In this document: piece after piece, positions 32,568 through 46,663 of the stretch
Numbering within the stretch: the first letter of the stretch is position 1
Layout: the number at the start of each line of letters is the position of its first letter
Source: Ideonella livida
GTDB taxonomy: Bacteria; Pseudomonadota; Gammaproteobacteria; Burkholderiales; Burkholderiaceae_C
Assembly: GCF_010499455.1 (NCBI RefSeq)
Contig: NZ_JAAGOH010000020.1
Location: 25,905 to 89,904 of the forward strand
Length of the DNA: 64,000 nt
Direction: 5' to 3'
Program-made: the position numbers and the translations under genes
The notes under the pieces: generated by a model
What the model saw: only the letters and a program-made list of their open reading frames with translations
The model's database searches: none
Told to the model about the DNA's origin: nothing

Positions 32568-33887
32568 TCAGCCGGGCAGTGCCCGGCCGGCGTGCAGGCG
32601 GTGCAGCACCGCCTGAACCGCCGCATTGGGTCGGCCCGGCAGGCTCCAGCCCCCGCGCACCGGGGCGCGCGGTGCCGCCGCGGCCCGCAGGCAACTGGCC
32701 ACCACCTGCGTCACCGTGGGGCGCCGTGGCCACCGCGGCAGCCCCAGGGGAGCCTGCAGGCCTTGCAGCCGCCAGGCGTTGTCGAACTGGTCATAGGCCT
32801 GGGGCCAGGCCCACTGCGGCACGCCGGCGGCCAGGCCCTGTGCGCAGGCGCCGATCCCTCCATGGTGCAGGAAGGCCTGGGCCTGGGGCAGCAGCCAGGC
32901 CAGCGGGGCCGAGGCAGTCTGCCGTTCGGTGGGGGCCAAGGGCCGGGACGGGCCCGGACCCAAGTGCAGCACCCGCCAGGTCACGCCCCCCTCGCCCTGG
33001 GCCAGCCGGTGCGCTGCCGCCGCATAGACCGCCGGCGCGGCGGTGGCCGCCGAGCCCGGGTAGCACACCAGGCGCGGGCCGCCGGGTGCCTCCCACCATG
33101 CCTGCAGCGCCGGGTCGGGCGCCCCACCGGCCTCGTAGAGCGGAAAGCCCAGGCACGCCACCGGCATCGGCCAGTCGTCGGGCAGGGACTGCCCGGGCGG
33201 GGCGAAGTCCGCGGGAAACAGGCCCAGCACCTGCCGGGGCGACATCAAGCCCGTGGCGAACAGCGGCCGGGGCAGTGGCGGCAGGCCGAGCTGCCGGCGC
33301 CAGCCGTCGAGGCGGGCGCCGGCCATGGGCTCCAGCTTGTGGTGGTCCAGCCAGCGCCAGGCCAGGCGGCGCAGTGCATCGGGCGCCCAGGCCGGTACGG
33401 CATGGCCTTGCAGGAAGAACGGGTGCCGGGCCGAGCGCAGGCCCGCCGGGGCGGTGTGGGCGGTGGTCAGCCGCAGGTTGAGCGACTCCAGCACCAGCCG
33501 GGCGCCGGCCACCAGGGGCGAGGCCAGCACCTGCAGCGGCGGTTCGCCGGCCGGCGGCGCCAGGCGCTGCAGGGCGGCCACGGTGGGGCCGATCGCCGGT
33601 ACCGCCAGGTGGCGCCACAGCACCCCAAAGCCCCCCAGCGGGTGCCACAGGCCGGGGTGTTGAGCGCAGCGTGTCATGGTGGCGGCGTCGACCACCGCCT
33701 CAAAGGGCACACCCTGCGCCTGCACCTCCTCGCGGTGCAGTTCTCCGCCCAGGAAAAGCACCGCGTGCCCCTGCTCGGCCAGGGCGCGGGCCACGGCCAG
33801 AAAGGGGTGCAGGTCGCCGGCACTGCCCAGGGTGGCCACCACATGGGTGGGCCGGCGGCCGGTTGCCGGTGGCTTCACAGGGCTCAC
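32568..33887 (-). CDS. UGT-like glycosyltransferase (GT1 type)
   Basis: 439-residue GT-B enzyme. The N-terminus HVVATLGSAGDLHPFLAVARAL is the acceptor-side start of UGT/MGT enzymes, and QAFLHHGGIGACAQGLAAGVPQ followed by AYDQFDNAWRL is the nucleotide-sugar signature. Such enzymes glycosylate lipids, sterols or small molecules. The start is a GTG at 33887 overlapping the upstream gene's stop (GTGA); a GTG at 33890 is an alternative. It is the last gene of the seven-gene minus-strand cassette with P450 and acyl-CoA ligase. Donor and acceptor are unknown. Confidence 0.85.
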   Translation of the reverse strand: MSPVKPPATGRRPTHVVATLGSAGDLHPFLAVARALAEQGHAVLFLGGELHREEVQAQGVPFEAVVDAATMTRCAQHPGLWHPLGGFGVLWRHLAVPAIGPTVAALQRLAPPAGEPPLQVLASPLVAGARLVLESLNLRLTTAHTAPAGLRSARHPFFLQGHAVPAWAPDALRRLAWRWLDHHKLEPMAGARLDGWRRQLGLPPLPRPLFATGLMSPRQVLGLFPADFAPPGQSLPDDWPMPVACLGFPLYEAGGAPDPALQAWWEAPGGPRLVCYPGSAATAAPAVYAAAAHRLAQGEGGVTWRVLHLGPGPSRPLAPTERQTASAPLAWLLPQAQAFLHHGGIGACAQGLAAGVPQWAWPQAYDQFDNAWRLQGLQAPLGLPRWPRRPTVTQVVASCLRAAAAPRAPVRGGWSLPGRPNAAVQAVLHRLHAGRALPG

Positions 33888-35158
33888 CACGGCACGGGAC
33901 CGAAGTGCTGGAACTGGCGGAAGTCGGTGACGGCAGGCCGGTGGCCGCAGCGCTGCGCCAGGGTCTGCGGGCCGGCGGTGAGCCGGAAGTAGTCCAGGCT
34001 GTCCGGCCCGCCGGGCAGGTCGGCCGCCATGAGGTACTGGAAGTGGCAGCGGTACTTGTCGGCCTTGATCCGGGCGTAGGCCGCCGGGCTGAAGCGCTGG
34101 GCAAAGCGGGCGTTGAGCACCCGGGGTGAGGTGTGCGGTGGCCGTGCCCAGGGGTGGCGGGGCGGGCCTTGCAGTGGCATGCAGCAGCCGTCCACCGGTG
34201 AGCTCAGGTCCACCCAGTGCAGGCCGTCGGCCGGACCCAGGGCGGCCAGGCGGTCCAGGTCGGCGCGAAAGGCGGCCGCCTCGGGCTGGTAACTCATGAT
34301 GGGCGTGCAGTGGCCCAGGGTCAGGAAGGACAGCGGCGGGCGGGGCTGCCCGGCGGGCCAGCGGGCCAGGGCGCGGGCCACCACGATGACGGCCATCATG
34401 GCGCCGGAGCTGTGGCCCACCACCAGCAGTTCGTCGACCGCGCGATGGGGGTCGGCCTGGGCCTGCCAGTGGTCCAGCAGCACGCCGGCCAGACGGTCCA
34501 GGCGCTCGTCGAGGTCGGGCATGCGCCCGCGCATGTGGTCCACCATGCAGGCGGTGCTGCGCATCATCCAGCCGCTGAAGCTGCGCCGTTCGGCCCACTC
34601 GGCCGCACCGGCCAGGGCAGGCAGGCCCAGCGCGGCCAGCGCCAGGCCCCAGCCCAGCGCGCCCTGCCAGGCCAGGTGGGCGGCGCCGGCCAGCACGCCC
34701 GCACTGCCCAGCGCCAGCAGCAGCAGGGCCAGGCCGGGAAAGGCCATGAACATGAACTGCGGCCAGGAGCTGCGCGCCAGCTTCCAGAGCACGCCGCCGC
34801 GCCACAAGGCCCAGCTGGCGTAGGCGATGCGGCCCATCAGGCCCCAGCGGCCACGCGGCCAGTGGGCGCGCACCACGTCGTCCCAACGCAGCAGGTCGAA
34901 CTGGGTGTCGGTGGCGGGGGCGTCGGGGCCGGCCTGCCAGCGCACCGTCCAGCCCATGGCCTGCGGGCCGCGCTTACGCCGCGGTCCGACCTCCAGTGTC
35001 CAGCCCTCCAGCGCAGCCTGGGACCGGCCCTCGGCCTGGTAGAGCTGGTGGTAGTGGTTGGGCCCTTGCGGGTCGAAGCCGCTGACGTAGAGGACCTGGC
35101 GGCGGCGCACCGGGCCTGATTCGGGCGCGGCGGCGGGCGGGCGGGAGGGTTCGGCCAT
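33884..35158 (-). CDS. membrane alpha/beta-hydrolase-like protein A
   Basis: 424-residue protein, family name not recognised. The order is: FDPQGPNHYHQLYQAE (27-42), WDDVVRAHWP (92-101), two or three membrane segments (about 138-185), RGRMPDLDERLD, the nucleophile elbow GHSSG with Ser250, LGHCTPIMSYQP (282-292) and HWVDLSSPVDG. The elbow and the following helix indicate an esterase/lipase-like fold anchored in the membrane. It is clearly paralogous to the product at 37004-38212, sharing each of these blocks. It starts 4 bp after the small membrane gene and overlaps the glycosyltransferase gene. Confidence 0.75.
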   Translation of the reverse strand: MAEPSRPPAAAPESGPVRRRQVLYVSGFDPQGPNHYHQLYQAEGRSQAALEGWTLEVGPRRKRGPQAMGWTVRWQAGPDAPATDTQFDLLRWDDVVRAHWPRGRWGLMGRIAYASWALWRGGVLWKLARSSWPQFMFMAFPGLALLLLALGSAGVLAGAAHLAWQGALGWGLALAALGLPALAGAAEWAERRSFSGWMMRSTACMVDHMRGRMPDLDERLDRLAGVLLDHWQAQADPHRAVDELLVVGHSSGAMMAVIVVARALARWPAGQPRPPLSFLTLGHCTPIMSYQPEAAAFRADLDRLAALGPADGLHWVDLSSPVDGCCMPLQGPPRHPWARPPHTSPRVLNARFAQRFSPAAYARIKADKYRCHFQYLMAADLPGGPDSLDYFRLTAGPQTLAQRCGHRPAVTDFRQFQHFGPVPW

Positions 35159-35162
35159 GGGG

Positions 35163-35510
35163 TCAGAAGATGGTCTGCTTGTGCAGGCCTTTGGCCAGCA
35201 CCAGGTCTACCAGGGGTTGCTCGCGCTTGTTGGCGCGGCGGCAGTGGTCCTTCTGGAACAGGTCGGTCAGGCGGATCACCCAGCGGGCCCACCAGCGGCG
35301 CTCGCGCTCACGCCAGGCGTGGGAGGACACCGACTCCCAGGCGTAGCCGTTGAACAGCGTGGCGTTGACGAAGTGGTCCAGGGCCCGCACGCCGGCGCGC
35401 CCGCGCTCGGTGCGGCCGAAGAACCCCACCGCCACCAGCAGCAGGTAGCCCGCCACCGCCAGGGGCACGATCGCCGTCATCAACACGAAACCGGCCAGCC
35501 GTTCCTTCAT
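35163..35510 (-). CDS. small membrane protein of P450 cassette
   Basis: 115-residue protein of unknown function. One or one-and-a-half hydrophobic segments near the N-terminus (about residues 6-32) precede a basic, aromatic-rich cytoplasmic-looking tail (WRERERRWWARWVIRL, KDHCRRANKREQ). The ATG at 35510 is chosen over a GTG at 35528 because GAGGA precedes it. It sits between the P450 gene (48 bp) and hydrolase A (4 bp), so a role in the same pathway or complex is likely. Confidence 0.65.
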   Translation of the reverse strand: MKERLAGFVLMTAIVPLAVAGYLLLVAVGFFGRTERGRAGVRALDHFVNATLFNGYAWESVSSHAWRERERRWWARWVIRLTDLFQKDHCRRANKREQPLVDLVLAKGLHKQTIF

Positions 35511-35558
35511 CCTTGTCCTCAAACTCACTGCGCAGGTGCCGCGTGCGGCGGCGTGGCC

Positions 35559-37007
35559 TCAGGCCCGTTGGTGCACCTTCAGGGCAATGCCATTTTCCGC
35601 GCGGATGGTCAGCCGGCCCACGGGCTCGGGCACATGGCCGGGCACCGGGGCCAGGCGCACATGCAGCGCGACGGTGGACAGCACCAGCGCCGCCTCCTGC
35701 AGGGCGAAGGCCGCGCCGATGCACACCCGAGGCCCCATGCCAAAGGGCAGGTAGGCCTTGCGCAGCGACTCCTTGGTGCTCAGGGGCTGCTGGTCTTCCT
35801 CGTGGGCGTAGCGGTCGGGGTCGAAGGCGTCGGGACGGGCCCACAGCTCGCGGTGACGCTGGATCAGCCAGGGCGAAATGACCACCGAGGCGCCGGCCTT
35901 GACCGTCTTGTCGCGCATGGGGCAGGTGCTGGCGGACTCGCGCGCCAGAAAGCCCACGGGCGGGAACAGGCGCAGGGTCTCCCGGAAGACGTTGCGCGAG
36001 AGCGCCAGCTCCTTGAGCTGGCCGGGGTCGTCACCCAGGCCGGGCAGGTGCCGCGCGGCCTCGGCGTGCAGACGCTCTTGCACGTCCGGGGCGTTGGCGA
36101 TGAGGTGCAGGGCCCAGGACATGGCGCTGGCCGAGGTTTCGTGGCCGGCCAGGAAGAGCATGGCCACCTGGTCCACCAGCTCCTCGAAGCTGAAGCCTTG
36201 GCCGGTCTTCGCGTCGCGCACCATCAGGAGGGTGGCCAGGATGTCCCCGCCTTCCTCCGTGGGCGCCGGTGTGCCCGCGGCGGTGGCCTGGTGGAGCGCG
36301 GCCTGGTAGGCGTCGTGGCGCGGGCGGATCAGGCCTTCGATGAGGGCCCGGATCTCGGCGGCGGCCTGCCGGCTGCGGCGGATCTGGCCCCAGGGCCGCA
36401 GCCAGCGCAGGCCGAAGAACGCCGGCATCATCACCCGCGGGGCGGTCTCCTGGTAGCGCTCGAAGGCGCGGAAGACCTGCAGGGCCTCGGCGCTTTCCAG
36501 CGGGCGCGAGAGGATGGTGCGCAGGATGATGTCGGCCGCCACATGGGTCATCTCGACCTCCATGTCGTGCACCCCGCCCTCGGGCACGGCCTTCAGGCGG
36601 GCGACCATGGCGTCGGCCGCGTCGCGCATGCGGCCGAACACCAACTTGACCCGCGCCGCCTCGAAGGAGGGGTTCATCAGCTCGCGCTGGCGCCGCCAGG
36701 TCTCGCCGTTGGTGGTGAAGATGCTGTCGCCCAGCAGCGGGCGCAGGGCCTCGCCCAGCATGGCGTGCTTGGGAAAGGCGTCGGCCTGCTCCATCACCTG
36801 GCGCACCAGGGGCGGCTCGTTGACCATGTAGACGTCCACCCCGGGCAGGTGGACTTCACCCATCTTCATGCGGTAGCTGCGCTCGTAGAGGCTGTCCAGC
36901 CAAGAGCGGCGCTTGCGCAGGAACATGGCCAGCAGGCTGGGCCGTTTGGCCGCGGGCTGGGGGTAGTGGGGGCAGAAGTGCTGGGCCGGGGGCTGCTTGG
37001 CGGTCAT
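35559..37007 (-). CDS. cytochrome P450
   Basis: 482-residue haem monooxygenase. The I-helix oxygen motif AGHETS is at 287-292, ExxR at 343-346 (ETLR), and the haem-binding loop FGMGPRVCIG at 422-431 with thiolate C429. The text WRRQRELMNPSF and the I-helix resemble CYP4/CYP102-like fatty-acid hydroxylases more than small-molecule camphor-type enzymes, but no subfamily is claimed. No ferredoxin or reductase gene is adjacent. Its ATG overlaps the stop of hydrolase B by 4 bp. Confidence 0.95.
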   Translation of the reverse strand: MTAKQPPAQHFCPHYPQPAAKRPSLLAMFLRKRRSWLDSLYERSYRMKMGEVHLPGVDVYMVNEPPLVRQVMEQADAFPKHAMLGEALRPLLGDSIFTTNGETWRRQRELMNPSFEAARVKLVFGRMRDAADAMVARLKAVPEGGVHDMEVEMTHVAADIILRTILSRPLESAEALQVFRAFERYQETAPRVMMPAFFGLRWLRPWGQIRRSRQAAAEIRALIEGLIRPRHDAYQAALHQATAAGTPAPTEEGGDILATLLMVRDAKTGQGFSFEELVDQVAMLFLAGHETSASAMSWALHLIANAPDVQERLHAEAARHLPGLGDDPGQLKELALSRNVFRETLRLFPPVGFLARESASTCPMRDKTVKAGASVVISPWLIQRHRELWARPDAFDPDRYAHEEDQQPLSTKESLRKAYLPFGMGPRVCIGAAFALQEAALVLSTVALHVRLAPVPGHVPEPVGRLTIRAENGIALKVHQRA

Positions 37008-38212
37008 GCGGGGGCGGACGAATCCGGGGCGGGGTGGGGGCTGGGCCGGGCGTCGCCGGAGGCGGTGGCCGTCCAGGGCCGTGCCATCTGGGTGGCCAGC
37101 GTGTCGGGGCCGGCGGTCAGGGCCACGGCATCGTAGAAACCCACCCGAGGTGTGGATTTGAGGTATTGCATGTGCAGCTCATGGCGGCGGCGCAGCAGGC
37201 GCTGGTACTGGGCCGCGTCCATGGCCTGGTGAAAGCGCGGCGAGCGTTGCTGCAGGCGCGGGGTGGCGGGTCCACCCCAGGGCGTGACCCGGGCAAAGGC
37301 GGCCCAGTCTGAAGGGGCGCTCACGTCCAGCCAGTGCAGGCCGGGGTGGGCGGCCAGCCGGTCCAGGGCGGCGCGGTAGGCGCCGGCGGCCGGCTGGTAG
37401 GCCAGGATGGGGGTGCAGTGGGCCAGGGTCAGCAGGCCCAACTGCGGGCCTTCGCGGCCCAGCCAGGGGGCCAGGCGCAGAGCGCGGTCCAGCATGTCGG
37501 TGGCCAGTATGGCGCCGGTGCTGTGGGCCACCACCAGCAGCTCGCGCACACCGGCCTCGCGGGCCTGTTCGGCATCGGCCACCAGCTCACGGGCGAAGGC
37601 GTCCAGGCGGGCTTCCAGGTCGGGTAGCCGGCCGCGGGCCTGGGCGAAGGTGAAGCCATACAGGCGCAGCAGCCATTCGGCGTCCAGCAGGCGCACCAGG
37701 CCGCGCCACGGCAGCAGGGCCGTGGCCAGGCCGGCCAGGGCACCCAGGCTGGCCGAGGCCGCCCCGCTGGCCGTGGCCGCCCAGGCCCCCAGGCCGGCAC
37801 CGGCGCCCAACGCGGCGCAGGCCACGCCAAAGGGAAAGACCGCCAGCCAGAAGGCGGCCGGGGCAGCGCGCCGCACCCGGGCGAAGGTGCCGTCGGTGCC
37901 GGCGCGGCCGTAGACCTGCAGGTAGTCGCGCAGGGCGCGGCCCAGCGGGCCCGGCCAGTGGGCCTGCACCACGTCGTGCCAGCTGAAGACGCCGTAACGG
38001 GTGCGGCAAGAGGCCTGGCCCGGGGCCTGCCAGGCCACCTCCCAGCGGTGCAGGTGGCCGATTTGCTGGCGCTGGGTGCCGACGGTCACCGTCTCCCCGG
38101 CCGGGCTGGCCGTGCGGCCCTGCACCGCCTGGCGGTAGAGGCGGTGGTAGTGGGCGGCGCTCTTGGGATCGAAACCGCCGATGAAGTAGACGTGCCGGAA
38201 CGCAGCGGACAT
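37004..38212 (-). CDS. membrane alpha/beta-hydrolase-like protein B
   Basis: 402-residue paralogue of protein A. Shared blocks in the same order are GGFDPKSAAHYHRLY (12-26), WHDVVQAHWP (78-87), a membrane region (about 119-170), RGRLPDLEARLD, nucleophile elbow AHSTG with Ser231, LAHCTPILAYQP and HWLDVSAPSDW, then LTAGPDTLATQ. The start may be the ATG at 38212 or at 38221. It lies 65 bp after the MBL-fold gene and is coupled to the P450 (ATGA overlap). The conserved HYHxLY and HCTPI-x-x-YQP motifs are not from any family recognised here. Confidence 0.75.
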   Translation of the reverse strand: MSAAFRHVYFIGGFDPKSAAHYHRLYRQAVQGRTASPAGETVTVGTQRQQIGHLHRWEVAWQAPGQASCRTRYGVFSWHDVVQAHWPGPLGRALRDYLQVYGRAGTDGTFARVRRAAPAAFWLAVFPFGVACAALGAGAGLGAWAATASGAASASLGALAGLATALLPWRGLVRLLDAEWLLRLYGFTFAQARGRLPDLEARLDAFARELVADAEQAREAGVRELLVVAHSTGAILATDMLDRALRLAPWLGREGPQLGLLTLAHCTPILAYQPAAGAYRAALDRLAAHPGLHWLDVSAPSDWAAFARVTPWGGPATPRLQQRSPRFHQAMDAAQYQRLLRRRHELHMQYLKSTPRVGFYDAVALTAGPDTLATQMARPWTATASGDARPSPHPAPDSSAPA

Positions 38213-38277
38213 GGCACGCATTGTGGCCGGGGCCGCACCGCCGACTTGGGGAGGTCGTGGCGTCGCCGGTGCGGCCT

Positions 38278-39237
38278 TCAATCGGGCAGCCGCACCCAGT
38301 CCCCGCCGTCAGTCCGCAGCAGTCCCTGGTCCCCCAGCGCCTGCACCAGGCCCCGGGCCCAGGCCTGGCGGGCGGCGGAGCCGGCATGGCCCAGCTGGGC
38401 GGCCATGGCGATGAACAGCGGGGTGCGGTCCAGGTAGGCCAGCAGTTCGGCACGGGGTTCGGCCCGTACCTCCATCAGGTGGTACATGGCCAGGGCCCGG
38501 GCCGCGTGCTGGGTGTGGCGGGCGGGGTCGCGGCTGAAGGCGTCCAGCCGGGCCCGGCTGGCGGCCAGGGCAGCGCCCGCGTCTTCAAAGACCGGGCCGT
38601 GACCCGGGATGACCAGGCGGGGCGAGAGGGTGGCGATGAGGTCCAGGGTGGCCCGGGTGGCGGCGAAGCCCGGTCGGTCCTCCAGCTCGGGAAAGATGAT
38701 GGCCAACCGGTCCTGCCACAGTGCGTCGCCGGCGATCAGCGTGCGGGTCTGGGGCTCGAAGAGCATGAGCGCGTCGGGGTCGTGGCCCGGCGCCGCCCAC
38801 ACCTGCCAGCGTGCTGTGCCCAGGGGCAGCACGTCGCCCGCGGCCAGCGCGCCCTGCACCGTAAAGCGGGCGCAGGCCTGGCCGGTGGCCCGGTAGCTCA
38901 GCCGGGCCTCATCCCAGGTCGTGGCCGCGGCATGGTGGCCGGCGGGCACCCAGGTCTGCGGCGCGGGCTGGCCCTCGGCCTGGGCCGCCTGCTGCAGGAC
39001 GGCATTGCCCCCGCAGTGGTCGGAATGCAGGTGGGTGTTGACCAGGCGTGCGGGCAGCCCGCCGCCCAGGGCGTGGCGGATGAGGGCCAGGCTCATGTCG
39101 GCATGGCGCACGTGGCCGGTGTCCACCACGGTGGCAGGCGCCGGCCCGCAGGCGGGCGCCACGATGTGGTTGGCCGAGAGCCAGTCGCGCTCCAGGACCT
39201 GCAGGCCCAGGTCGGCCAGGACGGCGCTTGCCGACAT
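38278..39237 (-). CDS. MBL-fold metallo-hydrolase 1
   Basis: 319-residue metallo-beta-lactamase-fold enzyme. The dinuclear metal motif HxHxDH is at 69-74 (HLHSDH), with further ligands in APGHDPDALMLF, LIAGDALW and VIPGHGPVF. A C-terminal helical region (about 240-319) may help recognise substrates, as in hydroxyacyl-thioester hydrolases. It lies 6 bp after the acyl-CoA ligase, so thioesterase or lactonase action on its product is an attractive guess. Confidence 0.88.
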   Translation of the reverse strand: MSASAVLADLGLQVLERDWLSANHIVAPACGPAPATVVDTGHVRHADMSLALIRHALGGGLPARLVNTHLHSDHCGGNAVLQQAAQAEGQPAPQTWVPAGHHAAATTWDEARLSYRATGQACARFTVQGALAAGDVLPLGTARWQVWAAPGHDPDALMLFEPQTRTLIAGDALWQDRLAIIFPELEDRPGFAATRATLDLIATLSPRLVIPGHGPVFEDAGAALAASRARLDAFSRDPARHTQHAARALAMYHLMEVRAEPRAELLAYLDRTPLFIAMAAQLGHAGSAARQAWARGLVQALGDQGLLRTDGGDWVRLPD

Positions 39238-39243
39238 GGATGC

Positions 39244-40977
39244 TCAGCCCTTGGCCGCCGGACCCTGGCGCAGCTCGCGCCGCAGGATCTTGCCCACGTT
39301 GGACTTGGGCAGCTCGTCGCGGAACTCGATGTACTTGGGCCGCTTGTAGGCGGTGAAGTTGTCGTGGCAGTAGGCCTTGACCTGCTCTTCGTCCAGGCTG
39401 GGGTCCTGGCGCACGATGTAGAGCTTGACCGCCTCGCCGGAGCGGGCGTCGGGCACGCCGATGGCCGCACTCTCCAACACGCCGGGCAGCAGGTTGATGA
39501 CCTGCTCGATCTCGGTGGGGTACACGTTGAAGCCCGAGACCAGGATCATGTCCTTCTTGCGGTCGACGATGCGCACCTGGCCCTTCTCGTCCATGATGCC
39601 CACGTCGCCGCTCTTGAAGTAGCCGTCGGCGGTGGTGACCCGGGCGGTCTCGTCGGGGCGCTGCCAGTAGCCCTTCATCACCTGCGGGCCGCGGATGCAG
39701 ATTTCGCCGGGCTGGCCCAGCGGCACCTCGGCGCCGTCGTCGTCGCGGATGCTGATGGACGTCGACGGGATGGGCAGGCCGATGGTGCCGGTGAAGCCCA
39801 TGTGGTCCAGCCGGTTGCTGGTGGCCACGGGTGACGTTTCGGACAGGCCGTAGCCTTCCACCACCGGGCAGCCGGTGACCTGGAGCCATTTCTCGGCCGT
39901 GGCCTGCTGCACCGCCATGCCGCCGCCGTTGGAGACCACCAGCTCGGAGAAGTCCAGGCGGGCGAAGTCGGCGTCGTGGGCCAGGGCGTTGAACAGGGTG
40001 TTGACCGCCGGGAACATGTTGATCTTGTGGCGGCCCAGGGTCTTGACCAGGCCCGGGATGTCGCGCGGGTTGGGGATGAGCAGGTTCAGCATGCCCAGGC
40101 GCGCGCCCATCATGTAGCAGATGGTCAGCGCGAAGATGTGATAGAGCGGCAGGGCGCAGACCACGGTGAGCTGCTTGTTGCCCACCTTCTCCAGCACGGG
40201 CTTGAACCAGGCCTCGGTCTGCAGGATGTTGGCCACCACGTTGCGGTGGGTGAGCATGGCACCCTTGCTCACACCGGTGGTGCCGCCGGTGTACTGCAGG
40301 AAGGCCAGGTCCTCGCCGGTGAGCGCCGGGGCCTTCAGCCGTAGGCTGCCGCCTTCGGCCACGGCCTGGTTGAAGCGGGTGACGGTGCGGCCCTGGTCCA
40401 GCGGCAGGCGGAACTCGGGCACCATCTTCTTGAGGTGGCGCACCGCGAAGTTGATGAAGGAGCCCTTCCAGAAGCCGAGCTGGTCGCCCATGGCCGCCAG
40501 CACCACATGGCGCAGGGCGGGCACCCGGTCGATGACCTCCTCCAGCGTGGCGGCAAAGTTCTCCAGCACGATGATGGCGCTGGCGCCGGAGTCCTTGAGC
40601 TGGTGCTCCAGTTCACGCGGGGTGTAGAGCGGGTTGACGTTGACCACCACGCAGCCGGCGCGCAGCACGGCCGGGATGGCCACCAGGTACTGCGGCAGGT
40701 TGGGCATCATCACCGCCACGCGGTCGCCCTTGCCCAGGCCCTTGGCCTGCAGCCAGGCGGCCAGGGCCAGGCTCTGTTCGTCGACGTCGCGAAAGCTCAG
40801 CCGCGCCCCCATGCACTCGCCGGCCGGGCGGCTGCCGTGGCGGCGCCAGGCGTCCTCCAGCAGCGCCACCAGGTGGGGGCTGGCGTCGGGGTCGATGGTG
40901 GCGGGCACATGCGCGGGGTAGTGCGCCAGCCAGGGTTGGTCAGCAGGGAGGGCAGGGCGTTCGACAGGGGCGTTCAC
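39244..40977 (-). CDS. long-chain acyl-CoA ligase, FadD-like
   Basis: 577-residue adenylate-forming enzyme. The ATP-binding P-loop YTGGTTGVSKGAMLTH, the core VEGYGLSETSP, the YFKSGDVGIMDEKGQ hinge aspartate, and the C-terminal lysine in LPKSNVGKILRRELR are all present, so it is catalytically complete. It should activate a fatty or similar carboxylic acid to the CoA thioester. The start is a GTG at 40977; a longer upstream frame is rejected as it covers non-coding DNA. It heads the P450/glycosyltransferase cassette. Confidence 0.93.
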   Translation of the reverse strand: MNAPVERPALPADQPWLAHYPAHVPATIDPDASPHLVALLEDAWRRHGSRPAGECMGARLSFRDVDEQSLALAAWLQAKGLGKGDRVAVMMPNLPQYLVAIPAVLRAGCVVVNVNPLYTPRELEHQLKDSGASAIIVLENFAATLEEVIDRVPALRHVVLAAMGDQLGFWKGSFINFAVRHLKKMVPEFRLPLDQGRTVTRFNQAVAEGGSLRLKAPALTGEDLAFLQYTGGTTGVSKGAMLTHRNVVANILQTEAWFKPVLEKVGNKQLTVVCALPLYHIFALTICYMMGARLGMLNLLIPNPRDIPGLVKTLGRHKINMFPAVNTLFNALAHDADFARLDFSELVVSNGGGMAVQQATAEKWLQVTGCPVVEGYGLSETSPVATSNRLDHMGFTGTIGLPIPSTSISIRDDDGAEVPLGQPGEICIRGPQVMKGYWQRPDETARVTTADGYFKSGDVGIMDEKGQVRIVDRKKDMILVSGFNVYPTEIEQVINLLPGVLESAAIGVPDARSGEAVKLYIVRQDPSLDEEQVKAYCHDNFTAYKRPKYIEFRDELPKSNVGKILRRELRQGPAAKG

Positions 40978-41207: not shown

Positions 41208-42320
41208 TCAGGCGCCGGGGGCCGCCGGGCCCGGGCCCCAGCGCAGCACGCCGTCTGCGCCTTCCAGCGGGGTCAGCAGCCCCTGGTGCCACAGGCGGTG
41301 GGCATGGGCGATGGCCTCGCCCAGGGCAAAGCGGGTCTGGTGCAGGTCCAGCGGGCGGCGGAACAGCAGGGGCATCAGGTCGGCGGCGCTGTGGGGCTCA
41401 CGGGCGCAGGCGGCCTGCACCTCGGCCAGGCGCTCGGCATGGTGGGCGTGCAGGGCGTCCACGCGGGCCTGCAGGCCGGTGAAGGGCAGACCGTGCGAGG
41501 GCAGCACCAGGGTGGCCCGGTCCCCGGCGTCGGGGCCCACGCGACGGGTGATCTCGTCCAGCGAGTCCAGGTACTGGCCCAGGGGGTCGGCCTCGGGCTC
41601 TAGGTCGATGACGCTGACGTTGGTGGAGATGCGTGGCAGCACCATGTCGCCGCTGATGAGCACACCCAGCGCCGGGCAGTGCAGGCTCATGTGCTCGGGG
41701 GCATGGCCATAGCCGGCGATGCAGAACCAGTCGTGCGCGCCCATGCGCACCCGCAGGTCGTCCTGCAGCCGGCGGTAGCGTCCGGGCACGGCAGGCACCA
41801 TCGCCGCGTAGTCGTTGGGCTTGTGGCGGATGCTCTCCAGCACCGCGGGGTCGGCCACGCCGTGGCGGGCGAAGAAGGCCGCGGTGCGCTCCCCCCCGAA
41901 GCCCCCGGGCTGCACCCGGGCGTTGCGCGCCACGTACCAGTCGGTGGCGCTGATCCACAGCCGGCATTCGGCCTGTGGCCGGTGCCAGCGTTCGCACAGC
42001 CAGTCGGCCAGGCCCAGGTGGTCGGGGTGCATGTGGGTGTTGATCACCCGCAGCACCGGCCGGCCCTGCAGCCCGGTGGCGAAGACCTGCTCCCAGGCCG
42101 CCCGGGTCTCGTCGTTGGCGATGCCGGTGTCCACCACGGCCCAGCCGGGCGTGCCGTCCTCGGCCACGTCGGCCAGCAGCCAGAGGTTGATGTGGTCCAG
42201 TGCAAAAGGCAGGCGCATGCGCACCCAGCCCACGCCGGGGGCCACGGCCAGCACCTGGCCGGGTTCGGGGCGCTGCTCGTCCAGGGGGTGGTGCAGCGGG
42301 GGAGGCGTGGTGGGGGTCAT
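41208..42320 (-). CDS. MBL-fold metallo-hydrolase 2
   Basis: 370-residue MBL-fold enzyme. The metal motif HMHPDH is at 96-101, with SLHCPALGVLISGDMVLP and LVLPSHGLPFTG supplying later ligands. It differs clearly from MBL hydrolase 1 and resembles the larger group with a C-terminal winged-helix-like domain (LGEAIAHAHRLWHQGLL). It lies upstream of the acyl-CoA ligase but is separated by 230 bp, so it may or may not belong to the cassette. Confidence 0.87.
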   Translation of the reverse strand: MTPTTPPPLHHPLDEQRPEPGQVLAVAPGVGWVRMRLPFALDHINLWLLADVAEDGTPGWAVVDTGIANDETRAAWEQVFATGLQGRPVLRVINTHMHPDHLGLADWLCERWHRPQAECRLWISATDWYVARNARVQPGGFGGERTAAFFARHGVADPAVLESIRHKPNDYAAMVPAVPGRYRRLQDDLRVRMGAHDWFCIAGYGHAPEHMSLHCPALGVLISGDMVLPRISTNVSVIDLEPEADPLGQYLDSLDEITRRVGPDAGDRATLVLPSHGLPFTGLQARVDALHAHHAERLAEVQAACAREPHSAADLMPLLFRRPLDLHQTRFALGEAIAHAHRLWHQGLLTPLEGADGVLRWGPGPAAPGA

Positions 42321-42478
42321 CGTGGGGGAGCGGTGGGCCCCGGCAGGCCGGTGGCGGGTGGGACGCCCGATGGTGGCGGGCGTGGCGCGCCACAGTCTGT
42401 CACGCCGGTGACGGTGGCGGGCGCAGCCCCTGTGCAGCCCTGCAGGGGCGATGGGCAGCGGCGCAGCGGTGCAGCGCC

Positions 42479-44776: not shown

Positions 44777-46663
44777 ATGCCCACCACCCCCGACACCCGT
44801 CCTTCCCGGCTTCGCCTGCTGGCGCTGGCCGCCGCCATGACCGCGGCCAGTGGCGCCAGCCTGGCCGCCCGCCCGGTCACCTGGGACGACATCGCCCGCG
44901 ATGACCGCACCGGCCAGGACGTGCTGAGTTACGGCCTGGGCCTCAAGGCCCAGCGCCACAGCCCGCTCAAGCAGATCCACGCCGGCAACGTCGACCAGCT
45001 GGTGCCGGCCTGGAGCTTCTCCTTCGGGGGGGAGAAGCAGCGGGGCCAGGAGGCCCAGGCCCTGGTGCACGACGGGGTGATCTACGTCACCGCCTCCTAC
45101 AGCCGCTTCTATGCGCTGGACGCCAAGACCGGCAAGCAGCTTTGGGCCTATGAGCACCGCCTGCCCGACGACATCCGCCCCTGCTGTGATGTGGTCAACC
45201 GCGGCCCGGCCATCTACGGCGACAAGGTCTTCTTCGGCACGCTGGATGCCCGCGTCCTGGCCCTGGACAAGCACACCGGCAAGGTGGTCTGGAGCGAGAA
45301 GTTCGGCGACCACAAGGTGGGCTACACCATGACCGGCGCGCCCTTCATCGTCAAGGAAAAGGGCGGCCGGGTGCTGCTGGTGCATGGCTCCTCGGGCGAT
45401 GAGTTCGGTGTGGTCGGCTGGCTGTTCGCCCGCGACCCGGATACCGGCGAGGAGGTCTGGGCCCGGCCGCTGGTGGAGGGCCATGTGGGCCGCCTGAATG
45501 GCCGCGATGCCGGCCCCACCGGCGACGCCCGGGCCCCGAGCTGGCCGCGCGACAAGGACGGCCAGCTGGTGGAGGCCTGGCGCCACGGCGGTGGCGCCCC
45601 CTGGCAGACCGCCAGCTTCGACCCCGACACCAACACCATCGTCATCGGCGCCGGCAACCCCGCGCCCTGGAACACCTGGAAGCGCACCGCCGAGGGCGAC
45701 GACCCCCGTAACTGGGACAGCCTGTTCACCTCGGGTCAGGCCTATGTGGACGCCAGCACCGGTGAGCTCAAGGGCTTCTACCAGCACACGCCCAACGACG
45801 CCTGGGACTTCTCGGGCAACAACTCGGTGGTGCTGTTCGAGTATCGGGACCCCAAGACCGGCAAGCAGGTCAAGGCCAGCGCGCATGCCGACCGCAACGG
45901 CTTCTTCTACGTGACCGACCGCGAGAAGCTGGCCACCGGCGCGGGCTATCCCAACAAGCCCACCGCGCTGATCAACGCCTGGCCCTTTGTCGACGGCATT
46001 ACCTGGGCCAGCCGCATCGACACCCAGACCGGCAAGCCGGTGGAGACCGGCAACCGCCCGCCGCTGCCGGCCGCCGGCGCCGACCGCGGCAAGGCCGTGT
46101 TCGTCTCCCCGCCCTTCCTGGGCGGCACCAACTGGATGCCCATGTCCTACAGCCCGGACACCGGCCTGTTCTACATCCCCGGCAACCACTGGGCCATGGA
46201 CTACTGGACCGAGAACCTGACCTACAAGGCCGGCTCGGCCTACCTGGGCCAGGGCTTCCGCATCAAGCGCCTGTACGACGACCACGTGGGCATCCTGCGC
46301 GCCATCGACCCCAAGACCGGCAAGGTGGCCTGGGAGCAGAAGGAGAAGTTCCCCCTGTGGGCGGGCACCCTGACCACCGCCGGTGGCCTGCTGGTGACCG
46401 GCACCTCCGACGGCTTCATCAAGATCTTCAACGCCAAGACGGGCAAGGAGCTCTGGAAGTTCCAGACCGGCTCGGGTGTGGTGAGCGTGCCCATCACCTG
46501 GGAGGTGGATGGCGAGCAGTACCTGGGCCTGTCCAGCGGCTACGGCGGTGCCGTGCCGCTGTGGGGCGGTGACATGGCCGACTTGACCAAGCAGGTCACC
46601 CAGGGCGGCAGCTACTGGGTGTTCAAGCTGCCCAAGGCCGCGCAGAAGGTGGCCGCCAAGTGA
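44777..46663 (+). CDS. PQQ-dependent alcohol dehydrogenase, ExaA/PedE-like
   Basis: 628-residue periplasmic quinoprotein that oxidises alcohols and passes electrons to cytochrome c. A signal peptide covers about 1-30. The eight-bladed propeller carries the vicinal disulfide C136-C137 (IRPCCDVVNRG), PQQ-contact region GNPAPWNTW, HTPNDAWDFSGNN, and tryptophan docking motifs such as DAKTGKELWKFQTGSG. It follows ethanol dehydrogenase ExaA almost block for block and lacks a fused cytochrome. Calcium versus lanthanide use was not decided. AGGAGA precedes the ATG. No pqq synthesis genes are in the window. Confidence 0.95.
   Translation: MPTTPDTRPSRLRLLALAAAMTAASGASLAARPVTWDDIARDDRTGQDVLSYGLGLKAQRHSPLKQIHAGNVDQLVPAWSFSFGGEKQRGQEAQALVHDGVIYVTASYSRFYALDAKTGKQLWAYEHRLPDDIRPCCDVVNRGPAIYGDKVFFGTLDARVLALDKHTGKVVWSEKFGDHKVGYTMTGAPFIVKEKGGRVLLVHGSSGDEFGVVGWLFARDPDTGEEVWARPLVEGHVGRLNGRDAGPTGDARAPSWPRDKDGQLVEAWRHGGGAPWQTASFDPDTNTIVIGAGNPAPWNTWKRTAEGDDPRNWDSLFTSGQAYVDASTGELKGFYQHTPNDAWDFSGNNSVVLFEYRDPKTGKQVKASAHADRNGFFYVTDREKLATGAGYPNKPTALINAWPFVDGITWASRIDTQTGKPVETGNRPPLPAAGADRGKAVFVSPPFLGGTNWMPMSYSPDTGLFYIPGNHWAMDYWTENLTYKAGSAYLGQGFRIKRLYDDHVGILRAIDPKTGKVAWEQKEKFPLWAGTLTTAGGLLVTGTSDGFIKIFNAKTGKELWKFQTGSGVVSVPITWEVDGEQYLGLSSGYGGAVPLWGGDMADLTKQVTQGGSYWVFKLPKAAQKVAAK

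Follow-up and report, generated by a model that had tools for sequence, protein, structure and literature searches.

A stretch of 64,000 nucleotides from Ideonella livida (hereafter, the window) was inspected for the seven open reading frames (ORFs) that lie on the minus strand between positions 32568 and 40977, which a sequence-only reading had proposed to form a single cassette. All seven were present and correctly placed. In the direction of transcription they code for a long-chain fatty acid–CoA ligase (FadD, 39244..40977; PRK07059, 908.5 bits for a cut-off of 869), an MBL-fold hydrolase (MBL1, 38278..39237; PF00753), a predicted membrane alpha/beta-hydrolase (HB, 37004..38212; 402 aa if translation begins at the ATG at 38212), a cytochrome P450 (P450, 35559..37007; 482 aa), a small membrane protein (SMP, 35163..35510; 115 aa), a paralogue of HB (HA, 33884..35158; 424 aa) and a GT1/GT28-like glycosyltransferase (UGT, 32568..33887; 439 aa), which has a GTG start and overlaps HA by 4 bp. 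The gaps of 6, 65, -4, 48, 4 and -4 bp given in that reading were reproduced using the ATG codons at 38212 for HB and 35510 for SMP; longer in-frame starts at TTG 38281 (HB) and GTG 35528 (SMP) would shrink two of them. A promoter scan returned 0 sites and a terminator scan 1 site, neither result exceeding that for shuffled sequences. The seven genes make up two units, a generic FadD–MBL1 pair and a conserved block, HB–P450–SMP–HA–UGT, and the core of this block shows a strong genomic link to the KpsC/KpsS capsule genes.

The P450 protein matched PF00067 (E 6.9e-66) and contains the motifs ETLR, AGHET and FGMGPRVCIG, which we take to be the ExxR, I-helix AGxxT and heme-Cys (FGxGxRxCxG) signatures of a cytochrome P450. 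Its nearest solved chain was 7wzl, for which no literature was found, followed by LUT5, CYP4B1 and P450 BM3; CYP4B1 and P450 BM3 are fatty-acid hydroxylases. A second P450, 45% identical to that of the block, is present on contig C7 of the same genome (L085, 9355-10797); the 20 kb around it contain neither a hydrolase nor an SMP match. UGT matched PF06722 and PF03033, both just above the cut-off, and its nearest solved chains were a sterol 3-beta-glucosyltransferase and oleandomycin/rhamnosyl transferases. SMP is very conserved, with one predicted membrane helix and a hydrophobic segment at residues 4-33; a protein search detected 1424 relatives at E<=0.001, and Foldseek returned a single match (E 5.2). 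Like HA and HB, SMP matched no Pfam or NCBIfam family at E<=0.001. It weakly matched phrog_3342 (E 4e-7) and phrog_34710 (E 4e-5), phage families of unknown function; nothing beyond these matches pointed to a phage origin of SMP, which is not favoured. Distant SMP relatives (L056-L066; 25-45% identity) also resemble phage families of unknown function; certain D, N, G, E, S, W and C residues are invariant between them and SMP.

HA and HB are 39% identical and carry the same Ser-Asp-His triad (S250, D323 and H372 in HA). The Ser and Asp of the triad were found in 38 of 38 aligned sequences and the His in 37 of 37, in agreement with the GxSxG-type nucleophile, Asp and His of alpha/beta-hydrolases; the residue before the nucleophilic Ser varies, and the preceding Gly is replaced by Ala in a few sequences (e.g. 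AHSTG in the window's HB). In a structural alignment with VIA-align, the best rows for the AlphaFold model of HA (predicted local distance difference test score 89) were lipases and phospholipases, and HA has hydrophobic segments at residues 132-164 and 167-186, suggesting that both proteins may be lipase-like membrane proteins. A plain Foldseek search with HA returned tyrosine phosphatases at E>=0.03 and template-modelling scores of up to ∼0.19, and these were not used. HA showed 9-13% identity over ∼220 residues to PlaB-type phospholipases and to the glycosylphosphatidylinositol inositol-deacylase PGAP1/Bst1; unlike these, HA, a putative hydrolase judging from its sequence and model, has its own membrane insert and a different gene context. 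At least 178 HA relatives were identified in a protein search that scored 8000 candidates, a number that is therefore a lower bound. In a tree of 42 hydrolases, whose root serves for drawing only, the proteins at the HA position clustered together (14 rows, support 95/92), apart from those at the HB position and those of loci with a single hydrolase (26 rows, 94/87, not starred). The HA/HB duplication is old, with HB forming a separate old branch.

The comparison of gene neighbourhoods across relatives, put forward earlier as a check of the seven-gene unit, gave a divided answer. The order HB–P450–SMP–HA–UGT was conserved in six of six named relatives (L005-L010, L006 being the Ideonella aquatica record; the L005 and L008 sequences start inside or at HB) and recurred in many further genomes of the family. 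The suggested set of a P450 with paralogous membrane hydrolases on either side, together with a glycosyltransferase, is supported as a recurring block. FadD–MBL1 precedes this block in the window and in L006, L007, L009, L010 and L071 (genome G076), but was not detected in the 20 kb stretches with the block in G181, of the same genus, or in G039, G053, G058, G064, G080, G081, G113, G128, G185 and G277. MBL1, in turn, had matches in 111 of 150 family genomes (E<=1e-30), seven of them SMP-positive and 104 not, while the SMP-positive genomes G039 and G064 had none at that threshold. Among 20 of the 111 MBL1 loci that were fetched, FadD sequence lay within the 1.5 kb flank in 13, and in 10 of the 17 that lack the hydrolase gene. 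Since FadD–MBL1 is common without the block, it represents an older pair of generic genes, and in the window's lineage the block lies downstream of it. The wide distribution of MBL1, and the presence of FadD beside block-free copies of it, lead us to reject a single seven-gene unit, and the boundary between MBL1 and HB is where the original observation was weak: FadD–MBL1 is no member of the recurring block.

SMP had matches in 24 of 299 family genomes. Fifteen of these matches were strong (67-90% identity); the other nine (E 6e-6 to 5e-4, 29-45% identity) were excluded from all counts. HA relatives were found in 18 of the 299 genomes, which included all 15 with a strong SMP match. At E<=1e-10, a class-wide search detected SMP in two of 369 genomes (G000 and G128, both already among the 15), and an order-wide search in five of 300, namely these two plus G720, G816 and G850, which belong to three other families. 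This brings the SMP-positive genomes to 18. In all 18, SMP had a P450 gene and one or more hydrolase genes nearby, a feature that sets the strong form of SMP apart from the two phage families that it weakly resembles. A second hydrolase was found near the core in nine of the 18, and UGT in 10, some of the stretches ending at contig ends. The genes were not always intact or adjacent: UGT matches were in two pieces in G053; the hydrolase beside the P450 was fragmentary in G128, with a fuller copy 4.6 kb away; the P450 lay 2.7 kb from SMP in G850; and in G279 the P450 was cut by the end of a 6.8 kb contig, which makes the absences in this genome uninformative. The constant core therefore comprises SMP, P450 and at least one hydrolase, often with UGT.

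Clustering of the neighbouring genes revealed members of several Pfam families beside the block: Capsule_synth (KpsC/KpsS) and Poly_export, as well as GT4 glycosyltransferases and an enzyme of the ManC type. A KpsE-like neighbour protein scored below the Wzz cut-off. A genome-wide search for PF05159, the KpsC/KpsS family, was positive in 47 of the 299 family genomes, 26 of them at E<1e-50. At this threshold, PF05159 was found in 15 of 15 SMP-positive genomes versus 11 of 284 others (15 of 15 versus 32 of 284 if any match is counted); by genus, the figures were 10 of 10 with SMP and nine of 131 without. The E<1e-50 cut was chosen after seeing the list, and these comparisons do not account for relatedness. 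PF05159 was likewise matched in the three SMP-positive genomes from other families, which were identified later, so that KpsC/KpsS-type genes accompany the core in all 18 genomes, that of the window included. SMP and a PF05159 match were less than 12 kb apart in eight of the 15 family genomes (0.7-7.7 kb) and in G816 and G850, that is, in 10 of 18; in the remaining eight, the distance was 0.57-2.3 Mb or the PF05159 matches lay on a different contig. MBL1 served as a control: in not one of the seven SMP-positive genomes where it was found did it come this close to a PF05159 match.

These distributions bear on the product proposed earlier, a glycosylated hydroxy-acyl lipid. The oxidation and glycosylation of a lipid remain plausible, since the nearest solved relatives of UGT act on sterols, macrolides and similar compounds, while a free, sophorolipid-like product is not supported for a block tied to KpsC/KpsS. 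If the block made a free or excreted glycosylated hydroxy-fatty-acid lipid of the sophorolipid or rhamnolipid kind, FadD and P450 would supply the hydroxy-acyl chain and UGT the sugar. The presence of CYP4B1 and BM3 among the solved relatives of the P450, the lipid-type glycosyltransferase and the position of FadD directly upstream in the window and the five relatives listed above would agree with this, and the block does resemble sophorolipid biosynthesis in its P450 and both pathways in having a GT1-type glycosyltransferase, a putative relative of RhlB. However, it differs from them in its linkage to capsule genes, its two membrane hydrolases and its SMP; UGT accompanies P450 in only 10 of the 18 genomes, and the block has no acyl-activation gene dedicated to it, FadD–MBL1 being a generic pair that occurs independently. 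We consider a free glycolipid unlikely. The capsule link was not visible to the sequence-only reading because the kps genes of this genome are on a different contig.

The arrangement of the genes at kps loci was also inspected. In G816 the order is KpsC–SMP–hydrolase–P450–KpsS, all on one strand. In G039, GT4–KpsD-type–GT4–KpsC–KpsS–UGT–hydrolase–P450–SMP–HA also lie on one strand, with 4-bp overlaps between KpsS and UGT, hydrolase and P450, and P450 and SMP. G080 shows KpsC–hydrolase–P450–P450–SMP–UGT, and G277 KpsC modules–hydrolase–P450–P450–SMP. The block and the kps genes are convergent in G113, G064, G053 and G279, and in G850 KpsS follows SMP after 0.15 kb, with the hydrolase and P450 on the opposite strand. 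The single-module KpsC proteins of L070, L072, L073, L074, L080 and the Polaromonas plasmid described below resembled the C-terminal module of a two-module KpsC more than its N-terminal one (44-51% versus 32-39%). One 760-aa ORF of L080 (5412-7694) combines a single-module KpsC with a GT4 glycosyltransferase. The same co-occurrence and neighbourhoods would be seen if the core modified the capsule polymer rather than its lipid anchor, for example by adding and trimming an acyl substituent on the repeat unit, and kps loci usually carry polymer-specific genes. Nevertheless, the hydrolases contain extended hydrophobic regions and are similar to lipases and phospholipases, the block adjoins KpsS and KpsC, the builders of the conserved lipid-linked part, and, unlike polymer genes, the core recurs across several families, which leaves polymer modification with a low probability.

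Among 72,556 plasmids, SMP was found in one only, plasmid 1 of Polaromonas sp. JS666 (L146, NC_007949.1), where GT4–KpsC–UGT–hydrolase–P450–SMP–hydrolase run in one direction; no KpsS was present among the annotated neighbours of the module. On this conjugative plasmid (6241-20563), type I secretion genes precede the module, which ends at an IS5-family transposase. Two plasmids of Alphaproteobacteria carry related hydrolases without SMP and with no kps genes nearby: in a Paracoccus plasmid (L156, 7986-10537) the hydrolase overlaps a P450 by 4 bp, and in a Methylorubrum plasmid (L157, 7362-9922) it overlaps a glycosyltransferase by 4 bp. The core might be an unrelated lipid-metabolism module parked in capsule loci, which gather foreign genes; its presence on a conjugative plasmid near a transposase, its separation from kps in eight of the 18 genomes and the Paracoccus hydrolase–P450 pair would all be compatible with such hitch-hiking. 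Against it stand the arrangement in G816, where KpsC and KpsS enclose the core on a single strand, the 4-bp overlap with KpsS in G039, and a co-occurrence that persists where the loci are far apart. Hitch-hiking therefore seems improbable to us.

KpsS and KpsC act at the inner membrane. In the assembly of the glycolipid of ABC (ATP-binding cassette) transporter-dependent (group 2, Kps) capsules, whose KpsC/KpsS were found in every one of the 18 genomes with the core and adjoin it in several, KpsS adds the first Kdo (3-deoxy-D-manno-oct-2-ulosonic acid) to phosphatidylglycerol and KpsC extends the chain. In the available sections of the sources, the terminus is written as (lyso)phosphatidylglycerol (PMC10148158, PMC7694667) or phosphatidylglycerol (PMC12220298, PMC11041684), and a diacylglycerol phosphate anchor is also given (PMC11800397). 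The corresponding sections of PMC10148158, PMC7694667, PMC12220298 and PMC11041684 describe no P450, SMP, membrane hydrolase or UGT as part of the Kps pathway. A literature search for KpsC/KpsS or kpsS together with P450 and capsule did not find the module, the co-mentions being incidental; this is weak evidence, as the search mostly excluded subscription papers. We regard the core as a genuine accessory module, probably of a type of system already known; the literature searched contained no description of it.

The simplest reading of membrane lipases, a P450 and a glycosyltransferase adjoining KpsC/KpsS is that the core tailors the (lyso)phosphatidylglycerol–Kdo lipid anchor as an accessory module of KpsC/KpsS-type capsule assembly, a reading to which we give about an even chance. 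As for the chemistry, the substrates and the order of the steps, a membrane hydrolase may remove or exchange an acyl chain of the anchor, acting as a phospholipase A or a transacylase; the P450 may hydroxylate an acyl chain, with SMP perhaps keeping it at the membrane; and UGT, where present, would glycosylate the new hydroxyl or the headgroup. In the window's lineage, the generic FadD–MBL1 pair could re-activate the released fatty acid.

In the window's genome, KpsS and a two-module KpsC are on contig C13, apart from the block; none of the ten ORFs scanned on C13 was an export gene, and the three Poly_export (KpsD/Wza-type) matches of this genome are on C6 and C10. Several observations in other genomes fit poorly with a role of these genes in capsules alone. 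The three genomes with HA relatives that lack the core (genus g139; L077, L079 and L081) keep FadD–MBL1–HB with the HB triad intact; two of them end at a contig end just past HB, and the third extends for 17 kb beyond it without a P450 or SMP. No SMP or PF05159 match was detected anywhere in these three genomes. In addition, second P450–hydrolase pairs are present in G185 and G053. Together with the Paracoccus and Methylorubrum pairs, these genomes suggest an older lipid-modifying partnership that was recruited to capsules together with SMP.

Two further features lie upstream of FadD in the window. A second MBL-fold gene (41208-42353; PF00753 and PF21221) is located 230 bp away from it. Further on, between 43900 and 46663, a minus-strand response-regulator-like ORF faces a plus-strand quinoprotein-dehydrogenase-like ORF (44777-46663), both recognized from their translations only.

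The hold of a capsule on a Gram-negative cell is decided by its lipid end, and the available sections of the capsule literature examined name no enzyme for deacylation of the anchor. We tentatively entertain, as possible though doubtful, a new anchor type on some Kps capsules, in which a P450 and lipases organised by SMP would make a hydroxylated, deacylated and often glycosylated Kdo–phosphatidylglycerol, with HA and HB as dedicated deacylases leading to a lyso-type capsule lipid. The P450 and the predicted membrane lipase, encoded with a very small, conserved membrane protein next to KpsC/KpsS, make up a genetically marked set of candidates for anchor enzymes, and SMP, from an unnamed family, gains with them a first context.
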